Assembly (NCBI GenBank): GCA_007692485.1
Contig: REBY01000069.1
Coordinates: forward strand, 1-32,562
DNA from: Pseudomonadaceae bacterium
Lineage (GTDB): Bacteria; Pseudomonadota; Gammaproteobacteria; Pseudomonadales; Pseudomonadaceae
Length of the DNA stretch: 32,562 bases
Direction of reading: 5' to 3'
The translations under genes were made by a program, and so were the position numbers. Below, in pieces: positions 3,347 through 32,134 of this stretch (the first letter of the stretch is position 1; every line of letters starts with the position of its first letter). Below the pieces are notes generated by a model. That model was not told where the DNA came from. It saw only the letters and a program-made list of their open reading frames with translations, and made no database searches.

Positions 3347-3709
3347 ATGAAACAGTCAACTAAAGGTTTTGCAATTGCCACTCTGACCGCCGCTGCCCTG
3401 AGCATGGGTATGTCATCAGCCGCTATGGCTTACGATAACGATGATGGCATGCGCGATTCCGCAGGTGATGCCATGGAATCAGCTGGTCAGGCTACTTCCG
3501 ATACCTGGATCACCAGCAAGGTACGCGCCAGCTTCGTAGCTGAAAGCGAGCTGTCTGCCTTGGATATTGGTGTTGAAACCAATGAAGGTGTCGTTACCCT
3601 GAGCGGTGAAGTCTATACCGATGCCGAGCGTGACCTGGCAATTCAGGTAGCTGAAGATATCGAGGGTGTCGAAGAAGTTGCTGCTGACGGTCTGACCGTC
3701 GCTGAGTAA
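3347..3709 (+). CDS. BON-domain periplasmic protein (OsmY-like), copy 1
   Basis: The 120-residue product has a Sec signal peptide (MKQSTKGF..., cleavage probably after SAAMA) followed by one BON domain. The domain reads DTWITSKVRASFVAE, then VETNEGVVTLSGEV, then AIQVAEDIEGVEEV. BON domains bind phospholipid or envelope surfaces, and OsmY-type proteins are periplasmic stress proteins; the exact role here is unknown. AGGAG lies 9 bases before the ATG. It is the first gene of a three-gene run with a near-copy (3788) and a CsbD gene (4213), under the sigma-54-like promoter. A 44-residue block (from ESAGQAT to VVTLSG) is identical in both copies. Confidence 0.88.
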   Translation: MKQSTKGFAIATLTAAALSMGMSSAAMAYDNDDGMRDSAGDAMESAGQATSDTWITSKVRASFVAESELSALDIGVETNEGVVTLSGEVYTDAERDLAIQVAEDIEGVEEVAADGLTVAE

Positions 3710-3718
3710 TCGTATCGC

Positions 3719-3748
3719 TGGCTCGCTGCGCTGTGCGCAGCGTTGCCA
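3719..3748 (+). other. Intergenic hairpin between the two BON genes
   Basis: A perfect 8-bp stem CGCTGCGC / GCGCAGCG with a TGT loop is extended by an outer TGGC / GCCA pairing across small bulges. No T-run follows, so it is unlikely to be a terminator. It could set relative mRNA stability or expression within the unit. Confidence 0.6.
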
Positions 3749-3787
3749 GACAGCAGTTCTTTCTAATGGCTATCAAGGAGAATGACC

Positions 3788-4147
3788 ATGAAAACTTCGA
3801 CCAAGAATTTTGCTATCGCCACTATTGCAGCCACTGCATTGGGGCTGTCAGCAATGTCGGCTGCTGTGCTGGCAGACGAGCACAAAAACCGCGATAAGGC
3901 TGAAAGTGCTATGGAAAGTGCTGGTCAGGCGACTTCAGACACTTGGATCACCAGTAAGGTACGCGCCAGCTTCGTAGCTGAGAGCGAGCTTTCCGCCTTG
4001 GATATTGGTGTTGAAACCAATGAAGGCGTCGTTACTCTGAGTGGTGATGTCGACACTGACGCCCAGCGTGACCTGGCCATCAAAGTCGCTGAAGACATTG
4101 AAGGTGTTGAAGCTGTCGCAGCCGATGGTTTGAACTCGCACGAGTAA
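3788..4147 (+). CDS. BON-domain periplasmic protein (OsmY-like), copy 2
   Basis: This 119-residue paralogue follows copy 1 directly. The ORF track starts at ATG 3782, but AGGAG at 3776-3780 is only 1 base from that codon and 7 bases from ATG 3788. The 3788 start also gives the same MK-ST opening as copy 1. A signal peptide is cleaved probably after AAVLA, and the BON domain follows. The mature N-terminus (DEHKNRDKAESAM) differs from copy 1, whereas the BON core is almost the same. Differences in the core are few and partly charge-changing (GEVYTDAE versus GDVDTDAQ). It is likely co-transcribed with copy 1 and csbD. Confidence 0.88.
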   Translation: MKTSTKNFAIATIAATALGLSAMSAAVLADEHKNRDKAESAMESAGQATSDTWITSKVRASFVAESELSALDIGVETNEGVVTLSGDVDTDAQRDLAIKVAEDIEGVEAVAADGLNSHE

Positions 4148-4485: not shown

Positions 4486-5124
4486 CTAGTGGCTATGCTT
4501 GCGGGTTGCGCGCAGAAACAGGTCGACGGCGGACTCTATGCGGTATGAACATTCTGCTTTGTCCGGCAATGGGCGTCCGTTCATCAGCAAGCCGGTGAAC
4601 ATGCTGCCTTTCCACATACCGATCAGTTGTTCAGCAGCCATGGCCGGATCTTCAACATTGATCTGGTCTTGCTCGATAGCGTGGCGCAGGCACTCTTCTG
4701 CCCGGCGAACAAAGGCAATGGGGCCATCCTGGTAGATCAGCTCACCGTGTGTGCCATGCCGCTCGCCATGAGCAATGACTGCCCGCATGATCTTGATGCC
4801 TTCTTCACTGGCGAGAAAGTTCAACAATTGGTGACCCAGGCGCAAGAGCTGTTCGCGCAGACCTTCCAGCGACGAAAAGGGCTCGGGACCCTGGCCAACC
4901 AAGGCGCGGTGCTGACGTTCCAGTACCGCTTTGAGCAGGCCATCGGCATTATCGAAATGTCGATACAGGGTGCTTTTGGCCACCCCGGCACGGCGCGCCA
5001 CAGACTCCATACCAAACTGTAGATCGCCCTCGGCGATGCTTTGCAGCGCATGGTCAAGAATGCGTTCGATCTTTTCTGGATCGACCGGCCGCCCGGGGCG
5101 AGCGTGGCTAGCGGGTTTTTGCAT
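4486..5124 (-). CDS. TetR/AcrR-family repressor of the adjacent RND pump
   Basis: The product is 212 residues. After a basic tail and GRPVDPEKIERIL comes the helix-turn-helix MESVARRAGVAKSTLYRHFDN (about residues 40-60), followed by a long helical ligand domain resembling the AefR-type TetR C-terminus. It is transcribed divergently from the RND adaptor and pump genes across a 102-base gap with a short inverted repeat, the usual arrangement of a local efflux repressor. Layout and length resemble MexL of the P. aeruginosa mexL-mexJK locus, but orthology cannot be settled here. The ligand is unknown. Confidence 0.88.
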   Translation of the reverse strand: MQKPASHARPGRPVDPEKIERILDHALQSIAEGDLQFGMESVARRAGVAKSTLYRHFDNADGLLKAVLERQHRALVGQGPEPFSSLEGLREQLLRLGHQLLNFLASEEGIKIMRAVIAHGERHGTHGELIYQDGPIAFVRRAEECLRHAIEQDQINVEDPAMAAEQLIGMWKGSMFTGLLMNGRPLPDKAECSYRIESAVDLFLRATRKHSH

Positions 5125-5168
5125 TATTGCACTCCATTCAAGACACGCATGATGCGCGGAAAAACTAT

Positions 5169-5187
5169 TTACGGTACGTTTCCGTTC
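5169..5187. promoter_or_regulatory. Candidate TetR operator in the divergent tetR / RND gap
   Basis: TTACGGTACGTTTCCGTTC contains the inverted repeat ACGG-N7-CCGT, roughly midway between the tetR start (5124) and the adaptor start (5227). An AT-rich TATTAT stretch lies just downstream toward the pump genes. The half-sites are short, so this is only a candidate binding site for the adjacent repressor. Confidence 0.35.
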
Positions 5188-5226
5188 TGTAATTATTATG
5201 GCATCGCCAATACAAGGTTAACAAAA

Positions 5227-6285
5227 ATGCGTCCTGTACTGCTCACTCTGCTCATGTCGACCCTACTGCTAGGTTGTGGCAACGACTCGATGTCGCCACC
5301 CGCGGATGATAACCCGCTGAAAGTCCGTGTGGTGGAATTGCAACTGGCCAGCCCACCTGAGTGGACCTTGAGTGGCAGCGTACAGGCCCGTCATCAGGTA
5401 GAGCTGGGTTTTCGCCTGGCCGGGGAGATCAATGCCCGTCAGGTACATGCCGGCCAGCGGGTGGACGCGGACCAGGTGCTGCTGACGCTTGATCCGCGTG
5501 ACGTCAGCCAACAATTGGCTTCAGCTCGTGCCGCGCTGGCGTCTGCTCGGTTGCAAGCGGAGAACGCTGAATCCAGCCGCAAGCGCTTGTTGAGCCTGCG
5601 TGAGCGTGATCTGGTGCCGGTGCAGAATTACGATGATGCGGTCACCGCAGCAGAAGCCGCGCAGGAAAGTGTACGCAGCGCCCAGGCGCAACTGGCCCAG
5701 GCGCAGACTGCGCTGGAATATGTCGAGTTACGTGCTCCGGCCTCCGGGGTATTGATTGAAGTCAGCGGTGAAGTTGGTCAGGTAGTTTCACCAGGGCAAG
5801 CGGTCGCCGTTCTTGCCTCTGAAGGTGAACACGAGATTGAAGTCTTTGTCCCTGAACGCCGTCGCCGCGGCCTACCGGAGCAGGGTGAGGTCGTGCTTTT
5901 TGGTGGTCAGCAACGCGCTCCGGCGAGTCTGCGCGAGGTTGCCGGTGCAGCGGACCCGATGACCCGCAGTTGGCGGGCGCGCTTTGCGATCGATGATGAT
6001 CCGGATAACTGGCCTTTGGGCAGCAGCGTAACCTTACAGTTGCATGGCAATGGTGAGGGCGATACGGGCTTGCAACAATTGCCGCTCAGCGCCTTGGTCG
6101 ACAAGGGGCAGGGCACCGGAGTGTGGCAGGTACGCGACGGCAAGGTTGAGTTTGTTGCGGTTGAGCTGGTCAGTACGCGTAAAGAGCAGGCCTGGGTGCG
6201 CAGCGATTTGGCCGCCGGTACGCCGGTCGTTGCTTTAGGCGTGCACTTGTTGCAAGCGGGGCAGATGGTTGAGGTGCTGCCATGA
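5227..6285 (+). CDS. RND efflux periplasmic adaptor lipoprotein (HlyD family)
   Basis: The product is a membrane-fusion protein of 352 residues linking an inner-membrane RND pump to an outer-membrane channel. The track ORF begins at 5041, but ATG 5227 has AAGG nine bases upstream and starts a lipoprotein signal peptide with lipobox LLGC (Cys17). Next come a lipoyl half (LSGSVQARHQVELGFRLAG), an alpha-hairpin rich in Ala/Gln (about residues 95-160) and the second lipoyl half (LRAPASGVLIEVSGEVGQVV). The beta-barrel and membrane-proximal parts follow. Its stop overlaps the pump start by 4 bases (ATGA), so the two are translationally coupled. Confidence 0.9.
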   Translation: MRPVLLTLLMSTLLLGCGNDSMSPPADDNPLKVRVVELQLASPPEWTLSGSVQARHQVELGFRLAGEINARQVHAGQRVDADQVLLTLDPRDVSQQLASARAALASARLQAENAESSRKRLLSLRERDLVPVQNYDDAVTAAEAAQESVRSAQAQLAQAQTALEYVELRAPASGVLIEVSGEVGQVVSPGQAVAVLASEGEHEIEVFVPERRRRGLPEQGEVVLFGGQQRAPASLREVAGAADPMTRSWRARFAIDDDPDNWPLGSSVTLQLHGNGEGDTGLQQLPLSALVDKGQGTGVWQVRDGKVEFVAVELVSTRKEQAWVRSDLAAGTPVVALGVHLLQAGQMVEVLP

Positions 6286-9200
6286 GTTTGGACCCTTTGC
6301 GTTTCAATGTGTCTGCGCACGCGGTTCGGCAACGCTCACTGACCCTCTTCTTTTTATTGCTGACTGCAGTGGTGGGGGTTTACGCGTTTTTTGCCCTGGG
6401 TCGCGCTGAAGACCCTGACTTTTCCGTGCGGGTGGTCATGGTCAGTGCGGCCTGGCCAGGGGCGACGGCAGCGCAAATGGAACAGCAGGTTGCTGACCCA
6501 CTGGAAAAGCGCCTGCAAGAGGTACGCTACTTCGACAAAATAGAAACCGTATCGCGCCCCGGCCGCGTAGATATGAAAGTTACCTTTGAGGACTTCACGC
6601 CTTCGGGTGACCTGCCGGAGTTGTTTTATCAGGTGCGCAAGCGCATGCAGGATGCCGCGCCATTGCTGCCACCCGGGGTGCAAGGCCCCTTCGTCAATGA
6701 TGACTTTGCCGATGTTTACTTTTCACTCTACGCCCTGACGGCTCCGGGCTTGCCCCCGCGTGAACTGGTGCGTGAAGCCGAGCAGTTGCGTGACCGTTTC
6801 AGCCGTGTTGATGGCGTGCAAAAGGTGCAGGTCCTGGGCGAGCGACCGGAACGCGTATTTGTTGATGTTGATCCACAGCAGGTGGCGCAACTGGGTATCA
6901 GTCCTGACCAGATTGCCGATGCCCTGGATGCTTACAATCGTCTGTTGCCGGCTGGGCTGGTAGAAACCAGCGGGCCGCGTTTGTACTGGCGGGTAGATGC
7001 AGACCTGGCTGACCTGGAAGCGATTGCCAATGTACCGCTGCGGGTCGGTGATCGGCTGATTCGGCTTGGCGATATTGCCGAAGTGCAGCGTGGTTATGAA
7101 GATCCGCCGAGCTACATGATTCGTGCCTTCGCCGAAGAGGCCGTGATGATAGGGGTGGTACTGGAGCGTGGGCGCAACGGGCTGGATGTGGGGGCCGAAT
7201 TGGCCGATTTGCATGCGCAGCTGACCGCGGGCTTGCCCTTGGGTATGGAGCTACGCCAGGTGACTAACCAGCGCGAGGCGATTACCCGAGCCGTTGAGCT
7301 GTTCCAGTACAAGTTCTTGCTGGCGGTGCTGGTGGTGATGCTGGTCAGCTTCGCCAGTATCGGGTTTCGCCCTGGCCTGATTGTGGGCATCGCGGTGCCT
7401 TTGACCTTGTGCCTGACCTTTTTGTTGATGCTGATGCGCGGGATGAACTTTGACCGCATTACGCTAGGCGCGCTGATCATTGCCCTAGGCTTGCTGGTGG
7501 ATGATGCCATTATCGCTATCGAGATGATGCTGGTGAAGATGGAGGAGGGCTGGGACCGCGTCAAGGCCGCTGCGCATGCCTGGACAGTAACCGCAGCGCC
7601 CATGTTGTCAGGCACCTTGGTGACGGTGATTGGTTTTGTACCCATTGGCTTTGCTCGTTCCGGGGTGGGTGAGTACACCGGCAATATCTTCTGGGTGCTG
7701 GCGTTTGCGCTGCTGGCTTCCTGGCTGGTCGCGGTGGTGTTTACGCCCTATCTTGGCGTGCTCTTGCTCAAGGATGTGCCCAAGGAGGTGCTCGCGCAGC
7801 AGCATGGTGCCCAATACCAGACCGCTAATTACCAACGTTTCCGCCGGCTGATTCAGCGCTGCGTGCAGTTCCGCAAAACCGTCGTATTGGGCACTGTGGC
7901 GCTTTTTGTGTTGTCGATTATTGGCATGCAAACCCTGGTGCAGAAACAGTTTTTTCCCTCCTCAGATCGTCCGGAAGTGCTGGTAGATATTCACCTGCCG
8001 GAAGGCAGCAGTATTGCTGCAACAGACGCTTTGACCCGGCGTATCGAGGCGCAACTGCGTGAGCATCCGGATGTGGTGTCCTTGTCCAGTTACCTGGGCG
8101 CCGGCGCGCCACGCTTTTTTATCTCGCTGAACCCGGAACAACCGAGCAGTAATTTCGCCAAGGTGGTGGCGATTGCCGAGGATGAACACGGGCGTAACCG
8201 CATCATGGCGGATTTGCGCGCGGCAATCGATGCCGGGGATTATCCGGAAGCGCGGGTGCGGGTGCACCGTCTGCTGTTTGGCCCGCCGGTCGTTTTTCCG
8301 GTGGAGTTCCGCGTGGTCGGGGATGATCCGGCCGTGCTGCGTCAGCAGGCGAGCCGCCTGCGTGACCTGATCAGTGACCATCCGAATATTGTCGACCCCC
8401 ACCTGGACTGGGGCGACCGGGTGCCGGTTGTGCGTTTGCGCCTTGATCCAGAGCGTTTGCGCGCGATCGGCCTGACGCCACGAGATCTGTCCAATCAGCT
8501 GCAGCTGCAATGGGGCGGTGTGCCGGTAACCGAGCTGCGTCAGGATATTCGCAGCGTGCAATTGCGCGTGCGCGGAGCCAACACCGAGTTGGGCAGTTTT
8601 GCCGACTTGCCACTGCGCACGGCCGATGGTCGCAGTATTACCCTGTCTCAAGCCGGCCTGATAGAAGTCGCCAGTGAAGACCCGGTACTTAAGCGCTATA
8701 ACCGTGAGTCTTACATCACCGTTCAGGCCGACATTCGCGGCGCCCAGCCGCCGGATGTGACCATGAGTCTGTGGCAGCAGATGGCCGATTTCCGCGCCGA
8801 GTTACCACCGGGGTATCGGGTGGATATTGGCGGTGCGGTAGAGCAATCAGCCACGGGGCAGGCCTCTATCGCCAAGGTACAGCCCATTATGCTGGCGTTG
8901 ATGTTGGTGGTGATCATGTTGCAGATGCGCACATTCTCCGGCACCTTGATGGTTCTCGCGACCGCACCCTTGGGTGTGATTGGCGCTACGCTGGCCTTGC
9001 TGATCGGTAATCAGCCTTTTGGTTTTGTGGCCTTGCTCGGCTTGACCGGTCTGGCCGGGATTCTGATGCGCAATACGCTGATTCTGACCAAGCAGATCGA
9101 CGACAATCTGGAAACGGGGATGGATCGCACCGAGGCCCTGGTCGAGGCCACCGTGCAGCGCACCCGTCCCGTATTGCTGACTGCGTTGGCGGCTGCCTTG

Positions 9201-9353
9201 GCCTTTGTCCCTTTGACCTTCGATGCGTTCTGGGGGCCGATGGCCTATGTGTTGATTGGTGGCACCTTGGTGGGCACCCTGATCACGCTGTTGTTTCTGC
9301 CCGGTTTGTACGCGCTCTGGTTCCGCGTCAAACCGGTCAGTCCAGCGCCTTGA
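6282..9353 (+). CDS. RND multidrug efflux permease (AcrB/MexK-type)
   Basis: This 1023-residue inner-membrane pump uses the proton gradient to export drugs or lipophilic compounds. One membrane helix sits at the N-terminus, followed by a large periplasmic loop. A helix group carries the proton-relay pair in GLLVDDAII (TM4); then come the second periplasmic loop and the C-terminal helix bundle. In TM10 the residue aligned by eye with AcrB Lys940 is Arg (GILMRNTLIL), as in other pumps outside the AcrB core group. No outer-membrane channel gene follows, so the pump must borrow one from elsewhere. The 3' end overlaps the convergent L,D-transpeptidase gene by 17 bases. Substrate is unknown; a MexJK-like role is a possibility, not shown. 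Confidence 0.92.
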   Translation: MSLDPLRFNVSAHAVRQRSLTLFFLLLTAVVGVYAFFALGRAEDPDFSVRVVMVSAAWPGATAAQMEQQVADPLEKRLQEVRYFDKIETVSRPGRVDMKVTFEDFTPSGDLPELFYQVRKRMQDAAPLLPPGVQGPFVNDDFADVYFSLYALTAPGLPPRELVREAEQLRDRFSRVDGVQKVQVLGERPERVFVDVDPQQVAQLGISPDQIADALDAYNRLLPAGLVETSGPRLYWRVDADLADLEAIANVPLRVGDRLIRLGDIAEVQRGYEDPPSYMIRAFAEEAVMIGVVLERGRNGLDVGAELADLHAQLTAGLPLGMELRQVTNQREAITRAVELFQYKFLLAVLVVMLVSFASIGFRPGLIVGIAVPLTLCLTFLLMLMRGMNFDRITLGALIIALGLLVDDAIIAIEMMLVKMEEGWDRVKAAAHAWTVTAAPMLSGTLVTVIGFVPIGFARSGVGEYTGNIFWVLAFALLASWLVAVVFTPYLGVLLLKDVPKEVLAQQHGAQYQTANYQRFRRLIQRCVQFRKTVVLGTVALFVLSIIGMQTLVQKQFFPSSDRPEVLVDIHLPEGSSIAATDALTRRIEAQLREHPDVVSLSSYLGAGAPRFFISLNPEQPSSNFAKVVAIAEDEHGRNRIMADLRAAIDAGDYPEARVRVHRLLFGPPVVFPVEFRVVGDDPAVLRQQASRLRDLISDHPNIVDPHLDWGDRVPVVRLRLDPERLRAIGLTPRDLSNQLQLQWGGVPVTELRQDIRSVQLRVRGANTELGSFADLPLRTADGRSITLSQAGLIEVASEDPVLKRYNRESYITVQADIRGAQPPDVTMSLWQQMADFRAELPPGYRVDIGGAVEQSATGQASIAKVQPIMLALMLVVIMLQMRTFSGTLMVLATAPLGVIGATLALLIGNQPFGFVALLGLTGLAGILMRNTLILTKQIDDNLETGMDRTEALVEATVQRTRPVLLTALAAALAFVPLTFDAFWGPMAYVLIGGTLVGTLITLLFLPGLYALWFRVKPVSPAP

Positions 9354-27532: not shown

Positions 27533-28300
27533 TCAGGCCAGCATACCGCCGTCAACAGTCACGGTAGTACCAGTGGTGTAGCTGGAAGCATCGCTCACCA
27601 GATACAGCACAGTCCCAGCCATTTCGGTCGGGTCGGCTGCACGGCGCAGCGGAATGCGCTGCAGGGCTTGCTTCATGATGCTGTCATTGCTGGTCAGCGC
27701 CGAGGCAAACTTGGTGTCGGTCAGGCCGGGCAGCAGGGCGTTGCAGCGAATACCAAACTGGGCGCATTCACGGGCAAACACCTGAGTCATGTTGATGACC
27801 GATGCTTTGGTCATCGAGTAGATGCCCTGCATGTCGCCAGGTACGCGGCCGTTGACCGAGGCTACGTTGAGAATCACACCACTCTTGTTCTCACGCATCA
27901 GTTTGCCGGCTTCGATCGACATGAAGAAGTAGCCGCGAATATTCACGTCTACAGTTTTCTGGAAAGCGCCCAGGTCGGTATCCAGCACATTGCCGAAGTA
28001 GGGGTTGGCAGCTGCGTTGTTAACTAGGATATCCAGCTTGCCGAATTGCTCGCGAATGGCCGCAACCGTGTTGGTAATCTGCTCCATCTCACCGATGTGA
28101 CAACCCATGGCGCTGGCTTTGCCGCCAGCAGCCACAATGGCGTCAGCCACTTTCTGGCAGTCTTCAACCTTGCGGCTGGAAACGATTACGTGGGCGCCTT
28201 GCTGGGCCAGCAGCTTGGCAATGGCTTCGCCGATGCCACGGCTGGCACCCGTTACCAGGGCTACTTTACCGTCGAGGTCAAACAGTTGGGTCTTTTGCAT
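27533..28300 (-). CDS. Short-chain dehydrogenase/reductase (SDR)
   Basis: This 255-residue NAD(P)-dependent oxidoreductase has the classical SDR layout: cofactor motif TGASRGIG (about residues 18-25), NNAAANPYF, the catalytic Ser in NVASVNG, YSMTK with the catalytic Tyr and Lys, and a C-terminal VTVDGG. Arg in the SSRKVE stretch after strand 2 suggests NADP(H) preference. AAGGA is 7 bases before the ATG, and it starts 24 bases after the phosphotransferase stop, so both are probably one operon under the 29429 promoter. The substrate is not visible; 3-oxoacyl or 3-hydroxyacyl compounds are plausible because of the neighbours (inference). Confidence 0.9.
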   Translation of the reverse strand: MQKTQLFDLDGKVALVTGASRGIGEAIAKLLAQQGAHVIVSSRKVEDCQKVADAIVAAGGKASAMGCHIGEMEQITNTVAAIREQFGKLDILVNNAAANPYFGNVLDTDLGAFQKTVDVNIRGYFFMSIEAGKLMRENKSGVILNVASVNGRVPGDMQGIYSMTKASVINMTQVFARECAQFGIRCNALLPGLTDTKFASALTSNDSIMKQALQRIPLRRAADPTEMAGTVLYLVSDASSYTTGTTVTVDGGMLA

Positions 28301-28324: not shown

Positions 28325-29392
28325 TTACAGCGTTGATTGATCAATAACCTGCAGGCTCATTTGCTCCAACAGCGTGTTCATGCCGATAAAGGCGGCAAAG
28401 CGCTGGTCCTGGGTCTGGCCGTGGTAGTAGCGATAGTAGATCTGCTGGACGATGCCGGCCAGGCGGAACAGACCGTAGGTGTAGTAATAATCCAGATTGT
28501 TGATTTCGATACCCGCGCGTTGCGCGTAGTAATCGGCAAACTCCTGCCGTGTCAGCATGCCGGGCGCATGGCTGGGCTGGCGGCGCATGGCTTGAACCGG
28601 CGCGGGATCATCTGCTTGAATCCAGTAGGCCAAGGTGTTGCCCAGGTCCATCAAAGGGTCGCCGATGGTGGTCATTTCCCAGTCCAGTACACCGATAATT
28701 TTCATCGGGTTGTCGGGATCAAGGATCACATTATCGAAACGGTAGTCGTTGTGCACCAAGCCAGGCTTGTGGTGATCGGCCGGCATTTTATCACGCAGCC
28801 AGGCCATAACGGGCTCCCAATTCGGGGCATCCGGGGTGATTGCCTTGTTATAGCGCTTGATCCAGCCTTCGATCTGGCGCTCGACATAGCCCTCGGGTTT
28901 GCCCAGGTCACCCAGGCCGCAGGCTTCATAATCCACATTGTGAAGATCAACAAACTTGTCGATAAAGCTTTTGCATAGCTCGCGGGTGCTGGCTTCATCC
29001 AGCCCCAGCTCCGGCGGCAGATCGGCGCGTAAAATGACTCCGTTGACCCGCTCCATCACATAGAACTCGCAACCCAGGACAGATTCATCCGTGCAATGGG
29101 CATAGGCTTTCGGGCAGTAGGGAAAGCCATCGTTCAATTGATTGATGATGCGGTACTCACGCCCCATGTCATGCGCTGACTTGGCCTTCACGCCAAAAGG
29201 CGGGCGGCGCAGAACGAATTCTTGCTCCGGATAGGCAACCAGGTAGGTCAGGTTGGAAGCGCCACCGGGGAACTGGCGGATCGTCGGAGTGCCTTGCAGG
29301 CCCTCAATTTGGGTTTTCAGGTAGCGGTCTACTGCGTCTGCATCCAGCTCTTCGCCGGCGCGAATCTGGCTCGCCTGGTCTGTGAGAGTCAT
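28325..29392 (-). CDS. Phosphotransferase family protein (APH / ACAD10-ACAD11-type kinase domain)
   Basis: The 355-residue cytosolic kinase-like protein has the APH fold: IRQFPGGASNLTYLV as the ATP loop, the catalytic HNDYRFDN (Asp of the Brenner-like motif) and the metal-binding VLDWEMTTIGDPLMDL. Proteins of this subgroup are stand-alone relatives of the kinase domain of ACAD10/ACAD11, which phosphorylates 4-hydroxyacyl-CoAs for degradation. A role in hydroxy-acid or lipid catabolism is likely, and aminoglycoside resistance is unlikely. AAAGGA lies 5 bases before the ATG. A promoter and a PsrA-like palindrome are just upstream, and the SDR gene follows. Confidence 0.88.
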   Translation of the reverse strand: MTLTDQASQIRAGEELDADAVDRYLKTQIEGLQGTPTIRQFPGGASNLTYLVAYPEQEFVLRRPPFGVKAKSAHDMGREYRIINQLNDGFPYCPKAYAHCTDESVLGCEFYVMERVNGVILRADLPPELGLDEASTRELCKSFIDKFVDLHNVDYEACGLGDLGKPEGYVERQIEGWIKRYNKAITPDAPNWEPVMAWLRDKMPADHHKPGLVHNDYRFDNVILDPDNPMKIIGVLDWEMTTIGDPLMDLGNTLAYWIQADDPAPVQAMRRQPSHAPGMLTRQEFADYYAQRAGIEINNLDYYYTYGLFRLAGIVQQIYYRYYHGQTQDQRFAAFIGMNTLLEQMSLQVIDQSTL

Positions 29393-29428: not shown

Positions 29429-29457
29429 AATCTAATTCAGCTATGCCTTTGTAACAA
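29429..29457 (-). promoter_or_regulatory. Candidate sigma-70 promoter of the phosphotransferase-SDR operon
   Basis: Reading the minus strand, TTGTTA (29452-29457) and TAGATT (29429-29434) are separated by 17 bases, and the ATG lies about 37 bases downstream of the -10. Each box matches consensus at four of six positions. Confidence 0.5.
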
Positions 29458-29460
29458 GAT

Positions 29461-29474
29461 CAAACGAGCGTTTG
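29461..29474. promoter_or_regulatory. PsrA-like operator upstream of the phosphotransferase operon
   Basis: CAAAC-GAGC-GTTTG is a perfect inverted repeat that matches the published PsrA pattern (G/C)AAAC-N2-4-GTTTG. It lies 3 bases upstream of the candidate -35 box. PsrA is a TetR-family regulator in pseudomonads that responds to long-chain fatty acids. The regulator gene is not in the window, and another TetR protein could use a similar site. Confidence 0.5.
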
Positions 29475-29585
29475 AAACCCGTTATCAGTCAGCGTGTTGT
29501 TGCTGAATTGGCTGGGTTGATACGGTGGCAGAGTTCGTTGGGCAGGGCAAGGCGGGCGGAGCGGGGAGGTGACAGGCGTGAAACA

Positions 29586-29612
29586 GGGCGCCGACAGCGT
29601 GGGTCGGCGCCC
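29586..29612 (-). terminator. Intrinsic terminator of the SCP2 gene
   Basis: GGGCGCCGAC and GTCGGCGCCC form a perfect 10-bp stem with a 7-base loop, 7 bases after the SCP2 stop on the minus strand, followed by TGTTT. The 29475-29585 stretch between it and the next operator shows nothing else I can support. Confidence 0.65.
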
Positions 29613-29619
29613 CGGCAGA

Positions 29620-29937
29620 TCAACCAGCGGGGAAGAGTTCGCCCAGCTTCATGGCCTGCATGATGTCGCCTTCGGCGCGCAGCTTGCCAGACATGAATGC
29701 CTGCATGCCATCCGTTTCACCGGTCATGATGCCTACCAGCGTTTCGCTGTCCATGATCAGGGTAACGGTCGGATTGGCGGCTTCGCCAGTGCTTACGGCG
29801 CAAGTGCCATCCTTGACGGCTACATTGAAGTTGTCGTCATCTTCGACGTTGAACTGGAATACGATATCCAGGCCTTGAGCGGCAGCAGGGTTGAAGCGGG
29901 TGTCCATATTGCTGACGATATCGGCAACAGTAGTCAT
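29620..29937 (-). CDS. SCP2 sterol-carrier-domain protein
   Basis: This 105-residue single-domain SCP2 protein presumably binds fatty acyl-CoA or similar lipids in the cytosol. The pattern is complete: a helix MTTVADIVSNMDTRFNP, a beta sheet DIVFQFNVEDDDNFNVAVKDG, VTLIMDSETLVGIMTGE, and the closing SGKLRAEGDIMQAMKLGELFP. The track start 29943 is TTG. ATG 29937 is preferred, although the AAGGA is 10 bases away. Stand-alone SCP2 genes beside acyl-CoA enzymes suggest lipid handling. It is divergent from sohB, with its own promoter (TTGACA-17-TAATCT). Confidence 0.92.
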   Translation of the reverse strand: MTTVADIVSNMDTRFNPAAAQGLDIVFQFNVEDDDNFNVAVKDGTCAVSTGEAANPTVTLIMDSETLVGIMTGETDGMQAFMSGKLRAEGDIMQAMKLGELFPAG

Positions 29938-29985
29938 GAGCAATCCATCCTTATTGTGTGGGGTGTGAGCATAAGCACAGTGCCG

Positions 29986-30014
29986 AGATTAGGAGCCTCT
30001 CTGCCTGCTGTCAA
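29986..30014 (-). promoter_or_regulatory. Sigma-70 promoter of the SCP2 gene
   Basis: On the minus strand a perfect -35 box TTGACA (30009-30014) is followed after 17 bases by TAATCT (29986-29991). The leader to ATG 29937 is about 40 bases. Confidence 0.65.
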
Positions 30015-30020
30015 TAAATA

Positions 30021-30038
30021 TTCATACGATCGTTTGAA
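30021..30038. promoter_or_regulatory. PsrA-like operator in the divergent SCP2 / sohB gap
   Basis: TTCATACGATCGTTTGAA is a near-perfect palindrome (one mismatched pair) with core CATAC-GATC-GTTTG, which fits the PsrA pattern with one change. It is placed 6 bases upstream of the SCP2 -35 box, nearly the same geometry as the 29461 site. It also lies about 80 bases ahead of the sohB start, so it could affect both genes. Confidence 0.45.
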
Positions 30039-30118: not shown

Positions 30119-31138
30119 GTGGAATGGTTGGGTGATTACACACTGTTTATGGCCAAGGCAGCGACTGTGCTGGTTGTGGTCTTTTTGATTGTTTCATTGC
30201 TGGCTTCACTGAAGGAGCGACAGCGGGCCAATGAGGGCACCTTGCAGGTACACCGGTTAAATGACCGGCTGGCCAATATGACTGAGACGCTGGGTGCCGA
30301 GGTGCTCGACAAGCAGGCGTACAAAGCCATGCACAAAGCCCGCAAGCTGCAAGAGAAAAGTCGCGCCAAGGGCGGCAACGCTGCACCACGAGTATTTGTT
30401 CTGACGTTTCATGGCGATATCAAGGCCGGGGCGCTAGAGCACCTGCGTCATGAGGTGACCGCAGTGCTTGAGTTGGCCCAGCCCAGTGACGAGGTTGTCG
30501 TGCGGCTGGAAAGTGCCGGTGGGATGGTCCACGCTTATGGTCTGGCTGCTTCGCAATTGGTGCGTGTGCGCGATGCGGGTATTCCACTGACTATCTGTAT
30601 CGACAAGGTGGCAGCCAGTGGCGGTTACATGATGGCGTGTATCGGCAACCGCATCATGGCAGCGCCTTTTGCCATGCTAGGGTCGATCGGCGTTGTCGCG
30701 CAGTTGCCCAACTTCAATCGCTTGCTGAAAAAACACGATATTGATTATGAAATGCTTACAGCGGGCGAGTACAAGCGGACGCTGACGCTGTTTGGCGAAA
30801 ACACCGATCAGGGCCGGGAAAAGTTCAAGCAGGATCTGGAAACTATTCACCGCCTGTTCAAGCGTTTTGTCAGTGACTATCGCCCGGCATTGGATATTGA
30901 CCAGGTTGCCACCGGTGAAGTCTGGTTCGGGGCTGATGCCCTGGAGCAAAAGCTGGCTGATGAACTCAAGACCAGTGATCAGTATCTAACCGAGCGGGTC
31001 CGGCAGGCGGATGTATTTGAACTGCGTTACGTGCAGCGCAAAAAGCTGCAAGACAAGTTGGCCGGTGGAACCGCCTCGGTGGTTGACCGTTTGTTGCTGA
31101 CCTGGGCGTCACGCTTTCACAATCAGCGTTTTTGGTAG
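30119..31138 (+). CDS. sohB: SohB-type inner-membrane S49 peptidase
   Basis: SohB is a signal-peptide-peptidase-like serine protease with its active site facing the periplasm. The 339-residue protein has an N-terminal helix (VLVVVFLIVSLLASL), a basic helical linker with EKSRAKGG and an S49 domain. The catalytic Ser is in KVAASGGYMMA and the Lys in GEYKRTLTLFG. The N-terminal SohB extension before the S49 domain is present. The start is a GTG (30119) with AAGGAG 7 bases upstream, which fits better than any internal ATG. It is followed after 9 bases by the reductase gene. Confidence 0.92.
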   Translation: MEWLGDYTLFMAKAATVLVVVFLIVSLLASLKERQRANEGTLQVHRLNDRLANMTETLGAEVLDKQAYKAMHKARKLQEKSRAKGGNAAPRVFVLTFHGDIKAGALEHLRHEVTAVLELAQPSDEVVVRLESAGGMVHAYGLAASQLVRVRDAGIPLTICIDKVAASGGYMMACIGNRIMAAPFAMLGSIGVVAQLPNFNRLLKKHDIDYEMLTAGEYKRTLTLFGENTDQGREKFKQDLETIHRLFKRFVSDYRPALDIDQVATGEVWFGADALEQKLADELKTSDQYLTERVRQADVFELRYVQRKKLQDKLAGGTASVVDRLLLTWASRFHNQRFW

Positions 31139-31147
31139 GAGAGTCAT

Positions 31148-32134
31148 ATGTCTGAATTCAAGGCGTTGCTGGTCAGCGAAACCGATGGTCAGTATCAGGC
31201 TGCAGTCACCACGCGGAAGATTGATGATCTGCCCCCGGGTGAAGTACTGATCCGCGTTAAGTACTCCTCACTGAATTACAAGGATGCCCTGTCTGCCAGC
31301 GGCAACAAGGGCGTTACCCGTACCTTTCCGCATACGCCGGGGATTGACGCCGCCGGGGTCGTCGAAGCGAGCTCGGTCAGTGACTTCTCGGCTGGCGATG
31401 AGGTGATCGTTACCGGTTACGATCTGGGCATGAATACCAGCGGTGGCTTTGGCCAGTATATTCGGGTGCCGGCAGACTGGGTGTTGCGACGCCCTCAAGG
31501 CCTGAGCCTGCGTGACAGCATGGTGCTGGGTACAGCCGGCCTGACAGCCGCTCTGTGTATCGACAAGCTGGAGCACGCTGGACTGGCACCAGGTCAAGGT
31601 CCTGTGCTGGTGACCGGTGCTACAGGAGGCGTAGGGAGTATTGCTGTGGCTATGCTCAGCGCCAAAGGCTATGAAGTGGCCGCTTCTACCGGTAAAGCGC
31701 TGCAAGCTGATTTTTTGCGCAAGCTGGGTGCCAGCCAGATTGTCGATCGCAGTGCACTTGAAAGTGGTAAAGACAAGGTGTTGCTCAAGGACCAGTGGGC
31801 CGGGGCCGTGGATACCGTCGGCGGTGATATTCTGTTCAATGTGGTCAAATCCTTGCGTTATGGCGCCAGCGTGGCGTGTTGCGGCCTGACGGCTGGTGGT
31901 CAGTTCAGTGCCAGTGTATTCCCGTTCATTCTGCGCAACGTCAACTTGCTGGGTATCGATTCGGTCGAGCAGCCACTGGTGGTCAAGGCCTCGATGTGGG
32001 ATTTGCTGTCGGTGCAATGGAAGACGGATCTGCACAACCTTGAGCGTGAAATCAGCCTGGATGCGTTGCCAGCAGAAATCGAGAAGATCCTCGCCGGTAA
32101 GATGGTAGGGCGGATTGTGGTCAATTTGGGTTAG
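31148..32134 (+). CDS. YhdH/AcuI-type acrylyl-CoA reductase (quinone-oxidoreductase-like MDR)
   Basis: This 328-residue zinc-free medium-chain dehydrogenase uses NADPH to reduce acrylyl-CoA-like substrates to propionyl-CoA. Seen are RVKYSSLNYKDALSASGNKG, the TFPHTPGIDAAGVV segment, GFGQYIRVPADWVL, the coenzyme motif VTGATGGVGSIAVAML and GLTAGGQFSASVFPFILRNVNLLGIDSV, all typical of the YhdH/AcuI subfamily. No structural zinc cysteines are present. GGAG lies just before the ATG. It sits 9 bases after sohB and 3 bases before a small membrane protein gene, so the three probably form one operon. AcuI function is inferred from family only. Confidence 0.92.
   Translation: MSEFKALLVSETDGQYQAAVTTRKIDDLPPGEVLIRVKYSSLNYKDALSASGNKGVTRTFPHTPGIDAAGVVEASSVSDFSAGDEVIVTGYDLGMNTSGGFGQYIRVPADWVLRRPQGLSLRDSMVLGTAGLTAALCIDKLEHAGLAPGQGPVLVTGATGGVGSIAVAMLSAKGYEVAASTGKALQADFLRKLGASQIVDRSALESGKDKVLLKDQWAGAVDTVGGDILFNVVKSLRYGASVACCGLTAGGQFSASVFPFILRNVNLLGIDSVEQPLVVKASMWDLLSVQWKTDLHNLEREISLDALPAEIEKILAGKMVGRIVVNLG

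Follow-up and report, generated by a model that had tools for sequence, protein, structure and literature searches.

How is the transcription of a small group of lipid-related genes controlled when two short palindromes of the same form stand in front of its promoters? The window analysed here, a stretch of 32,562 nucleotides, forms one contig in a Halopseudomonas-like genome of 2.8 Mb and encodes on its minus strand a sterol-carrier-protein-2 family protein (SCP2), which is present in 148 of 149 genomes of the family, and a phosphotransferase-SDR gene pair running from 29392 down to 27533. The divergent neighbours of SCP2 are sohB and a reductase gene. In its phosphotransferase the window comes nearest, among named loci, to a sediment gammaproteobacterial MAG (96%) and to Halopseudomonas genomes (84–85%). 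A first-pass annotation of the window attributed both palindromes to PsrA, a TetR-family sensor of long-chain fatty acids. Is PsrA their owner? Which genes does each site serve, and would the regulator repress or activate them?

Two palindromes upstream of putative minus-strand promoters

The window contains CAWACN4GTTTG without mismatch at only two places, CAAACGAGCGTTTG at 29461–29474 and CATACGATCGTTTG at 30023–30036. As had been noticed at first reading, both palindromes are real, and each is followed on the minus strand by a plausible sigma-70 promoter (Table 1). The 18 bases around the first are TTCAAACGCTCGTTTGAT. An 18-base palindrome had been described at the second, and it is present with one mismatched pair (TTCAAACGATCGTATGAA). 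The two sites had also been placed at equal distances from their -35 boxes, which a like-for-like count does not bear out. From the end of the 14-mer there are 3 nt to the -35 of the phosphotransferase promoter and 8 nt to that of the SCP2 promoter, and from the end of the 18-mer there are 1 and 6 nt. The distances appeared equal because one site had been measured from its 14-mer and the other from its 18-mer. Spacing is conserved inside each promoter family, and the two families are about half a helical turn apart.

Table 1. Operators, promoters and genes of the locus, in window coordinates
Feature	Position	Strand	Basis or remark
Operator 1, candidate PsrA palindrome before the phosphotransferase-SDR pair	29459..29476	-	1 mismatch to TTCAAACN4GTTTGAA
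Operator 2, candidate PsrA palindrome before SCP2, in the sohB gap	30021..30038	-	1 mismatch to TTCAAACN4GTTTGAA
Phosphotransferase-SDR promoter, TTGTTA-17-TAGATT	29429..29457	-	plausible sigma-70, read from sequence
SCP2 promoter, TTGACA-17-TAATCT	29986..30014	-	plausible sigma-70, read from sequence
SDR oxidoreductase (PRK07035 equivalog)	27533..28300	-	NF005446, 464.7 bits, above cut-off
Phosphotransferase (APH fold), predicted ACAD11/LvaA-like hydroxyacyl-CoA kinase, putative PA1829 counterpart	28325..29392	-	PF01636
SCP2 (sterol-carrier-protein-2 family), 105 aa	29620..29937	-	PF02036, E 3e-19, scored on a 107-aa reading
sohB protease, divergent neighbour	30119..31138	+	NF008745 equivalog
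YhdH/acrylyl-CoA reductase family protein, 3' of sohB	31148..32134	+	TIGR02823, above cut-off

Could such palindromes have arisen by chance, with no regulatory role? A loose scan of the window with the 14-mer and 2 mismatches does give many matches (67, against 47 expected). The longer pattern behaves differently. Genome-wide scans were pattern searches in which the reversed pattern served as control, and TTCAAACN4GTTTGAA with up to 2 mismatches was found at 11 places in the genome of the window, against 1 for the control. At up to 1 mismatch only five places remain in the genome, and operators 1 and 2 are among them. Chance is further opposed by the fixed position of operator 2 across the order and, for operator 1, by constant spacing in all eight genus genomes that have the phosphotransferase gene, and we regard it as extremely improbable. 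A chance origin of operator 2 in particular was ruled out by the reversed-pattern control together with its conservation.

Known PsrA targets are represented in the genome-wide set. Among the 11 places are psrA, fadBA, two fadE-like genes for acyl-CoA dehydrogenases, and the nlpD-internal rpoS box; four are weak, being located in coding sequence (two, C31 and C45), upstream of an HSD17B4-like SDR gene (C130) and between genes (C177). When 21 genomes from the genus were scanned for the 18-mer at up to 1 mismatch, 19 had 1–5 places, and the control had 0–1.

A near-identical double operator block, AAACGTATGTTTCAAACGTCTGTTT, is common to the promoters of psrA and of one fadE-like gene, where it overlaps or follows the -10 (L071, G000:C90:5522-5539; L080, G000:C143:6775-6792). 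The site before the HSD17B4-like SDR gene, GTCAAACAGTCGTTCGAA (L079, G000:C130:11861-11878), precedes the apparent start codon region of that gene by approximately 45–60 nt, and the gene may be a further PsrA target.

Conservation of the two sites

On the SCP2 side, TTCAAACN4GTATGWW or a close form is found 7–8 nt before TTGACA at 77 of the 80 named loci from Pseudomonadaceae, and the three remaining loci do not include the sohB-SCP2 gap. Elsewhere in the order, the families examined likewise have the site in this gap. When 94 distinct sohB gaps from the Pseudomonadales were compared, the site was present with up to 2 mismatches in 78, and in 73 of those 78 TTGACA or a close form follows at 6–9 nt, most often at 8. 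In most named Pseudomonadaceae loci a histidine-phosphatase gene (e.g. L102:3658-4368) is inserted between the sohB-gap promoter and SCP2; its product has 236 aa in P. aeruginosa PA7, and PA1831 of PAO1 is annotated gpmA. This gene is absent from the genome of the window and from several relatives, where the site is directly before SCP2, and it was not seen in the examined families of the order outside Pseudomonadaceae. Whether or not it intervenes, the operator stays with the promoter. Operator 2 is among the most strictly conserved PsrA-type sites in this analysis, and it is probably the original point of control at this locus throughout the order.

The site could in principle work in both directions and also serve the divergent sohB-reductase pair, as the first-pass annotation had suggested, since it is in a shared gap whose genes are divergent across the order. 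The distances argue otherwise. The start of sohB is anywhere from 53 to 239 nt from the site over the distinct gaps, whereas the distance to TTGACA on the SCP2 side is fixed, and operator 2 is assigned to the SCP2-side promoter for this reason. Control of sohB and the reductase gene from operator 2 is therefore unlikely.

The phosphotransferase side has a different history. All eight genomes of the genus with the phosphotransferase gene have the site at up to 3 mismatches with identical spacing to the -35, and of five named Halopseudomonas-like loci four have it at up to 3 mismatches and one at 4. Among named loci outside the genus the position of operator 1 shows only background in 74 of 75. 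The TTG...TTAGATTA block (-10) is conserved in relatives with or without operator 1. The simplest reading of this pattern would be a lineage-specific gain of operator 1 in Halopseudomonas. Conservation in orthologous promoters, which had been proposed as a check on both sites, was found across the order for the SCP2 site, whereas for the phosphotransferase site it did not extend beyond the genus.

PsrA as the probable owner

The genome of the window encodes one PsrA-family protein (PF17939, E 4.5e-31). Its gene adjoins lexA and a nagZ-like gene, an arrangement familiar from Pseudomonas. Over residues 3–57, helix-turn-helix included, the protein is identical to PsrA of P. aeruginosa (2FBQ). The published PsrA site is TTCAAACN4GTTTGAA (PMC13104628), and a motif C/GAAACN4GTTTG/C has been described together with repression of fadBA5 and PA0506 (PMC5722320). 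With the Pseudomonas operators of psrA, fadBA5 and fadE (PA0506), the sites of the window share CAAACN4GTTTG with TTC/GAA flanks and a regulator whose DNA-binding region is identical.

The site also varies together with the operator of psrA itself. Among 40 genomes, the psrA promoter has a PsrA-type site in 27 of the 28 that have the SCP2-side site and in 1 of the 12 that do not (Fisher p=6e-8, with each genome counted as independent; the losses fall in about 4–5 lineages). The two exceptions are G070, which keeps the psrA operator without the SCP2-side site, and G011, in which the reverse is seen. G002, which is 99% complete, has no detectable PsrA and the SCP2-side site is missing. The family genomes under g13 and g18, and some of those under g9 and g11, keep PsrA but have neither the psrA-promoter operator nor the SCP2-side site, which suggests that PsrA has been rewired in these lineages.

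Similar palindromes are often bound by TetR regulators, and an AefR-like TetR gene is located inside the window (4486–5124), so another member of the family with a look-alike motif, AefR-like or of the PvrA type, has to be considered. Such an owner is quite improbable. Site presence follows the operator of psrA, and the AefR-like gene adjoins an RND pump and has no copy below 2 mismatches in its flank. The published PvrA motif is GGTCA (PMC11890623). As owners, the AefR-like protein was ruled out for want of a good motif copy beside its gene, and PvrA by its different motif.

On account of the genome-wide motif set, the identical helix-turn-helix, the conservation of operator 2 and the co-variation with the psrA operator, both palindromes are very probably PsrA operators from which the protein would be released by long-chain fatty acids. 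The attribution to PsrA made at first reading is in this respect strongly supported. A PsrA dimer would occupy TTCAAACN4GTWTGAA directly ahead of the -35 box in the SCP2 promoter and in the phosphotransferase-SDR promoter. Long-chain fatty acids would bind PsrA, which would leave the DNA, and the SCP2, phosphotransferase and SDR genes would then track the fatty-acid supply.

The direction of this control is less certain. Operators 1 and 2 are upstream of the -35, whereas the psrA and fadE-like operators of the same genome are at or past the -10. If the transcription start is assumed to be 7 nt past the -10, the SCP2-side 18-mer spans approximately -59 to -42. This resembles the PsrA footprint of -59 to -35 at rpoS, which is reported to be positively regulated (PMC13104628), and PsrA might likewise act here as an activator from a site centred near -50, in which case fatty acids would lower expression. 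The rpoS box inside nlpD is a TTCAAACN4GTTTGAA site upstream of a promoter, and it is found in the present genome too (CTCAAACGACAGTTTGAA). It differs in that rpoS encodes a stress sigma factor and is reported to be activated, whereas operators 1 and 2 stand before lipid genes. PsrA is a repressor of most fatty-acid genes (PMC5722320). In addition PA1829, the apparent counterpart of the window phosphotransferase, is among oxylipin effector genes (PMC6377657); the direction is unstated in the main text of that paper, and its membership fits release of a repressor better. Activation of the rpoS type is a substantial possibility, though repression relieved by fatty acids seems somewhat the better choice.

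In this genome 456 bp separate the rpoS box (L003:1499-1516) from the apparent start codon of rpoS downstream of it. Because of this distance, the review that numbers the -59 to -35 footprint from the ATG (PMC13104628) probably meant the transcription start.

The phosphotransferase and a possible link to hydroxy fatty acids

What might these genes do under a fatty-acid sensor? Nearly the whole phosphotransferase can be aligned with the ACAD11 kinase domain (8v3v, E 8e-46), and the catalytic Asp and Asn are conserved, with LVHNDYRFDN aligned to D220 and N225 of ACAD11. ACAD10 and ACAD11 phosphorylate 4-hydroxyacyl-CoAs, and P. putida uses the related LvaA to break down levulinic acid (PMC12440821, PMC11342911). 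With a match to the whole kinase domain and the catalytic residues kept, the protein is predicted to be an ACAD11/LvaA-like hydroxyacyl-CoA kinase. Its likeness to LvaA comes by way of the ACAD11 comparison, and, unlike in the LvaA system, an LvaC-type acyl-CoA dehydrogenase is absent beside the gene in the window. A role in the breakdown of hydroxy fatty acids may be proposed from these resemblances. The equation with PA1829 is drawn from the gene order of PA7 and from how PA1829 and PA1831 are annotated.

The authors who listed PA1829 among the oxylipin effector genes called the responsible regulators unidentified (PMC6377657). Could PsrA be one of them? In such a scheme PsrA would carry the action of hydroxylated oleic acids (oxylipins) to the PA1829 operon, and SCP2, the ACAD11-like kinase and the SDR would pass hydroxy fatty acids on to beta-oxidation, controlled from an operator that has persisted across the Pseudomonadales. 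We consider this whole scheme speculative and rather doubtful. If the attribution of the sites to PsrA is right, PsrA would directly control a widespread but little-studied lipid operon and so give the SCP2 carrier, the ACAD11-like kinase and the SDR a physiological context, and the question of which regulator links oxylipins to PA1829 would become directly testable (PMC6377657).

These genes had been thought to stand outside the classical PsrA picture, and the open literature that was searched agrees, RegPrecise target lists aside. It held no statement on PsrA control of the PA1828–PA1832 operon or on PsrA and a sterol carrier; a listing in RegPrecise or in Kazakov 2009 is possible. Within that literature the SCP2/phosphotransferase operon would modestly extend the set of targets of a regulator that is already known.

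Elsewhere in the window, the AefR-like TetR gene is divergent from and overlaps an RND efflux operon encoding a membrane fusion protein and an AcrB-type pump (4486–9353), and a tandem pair of similar BON-domain proteins is encoded at 3347–4147.
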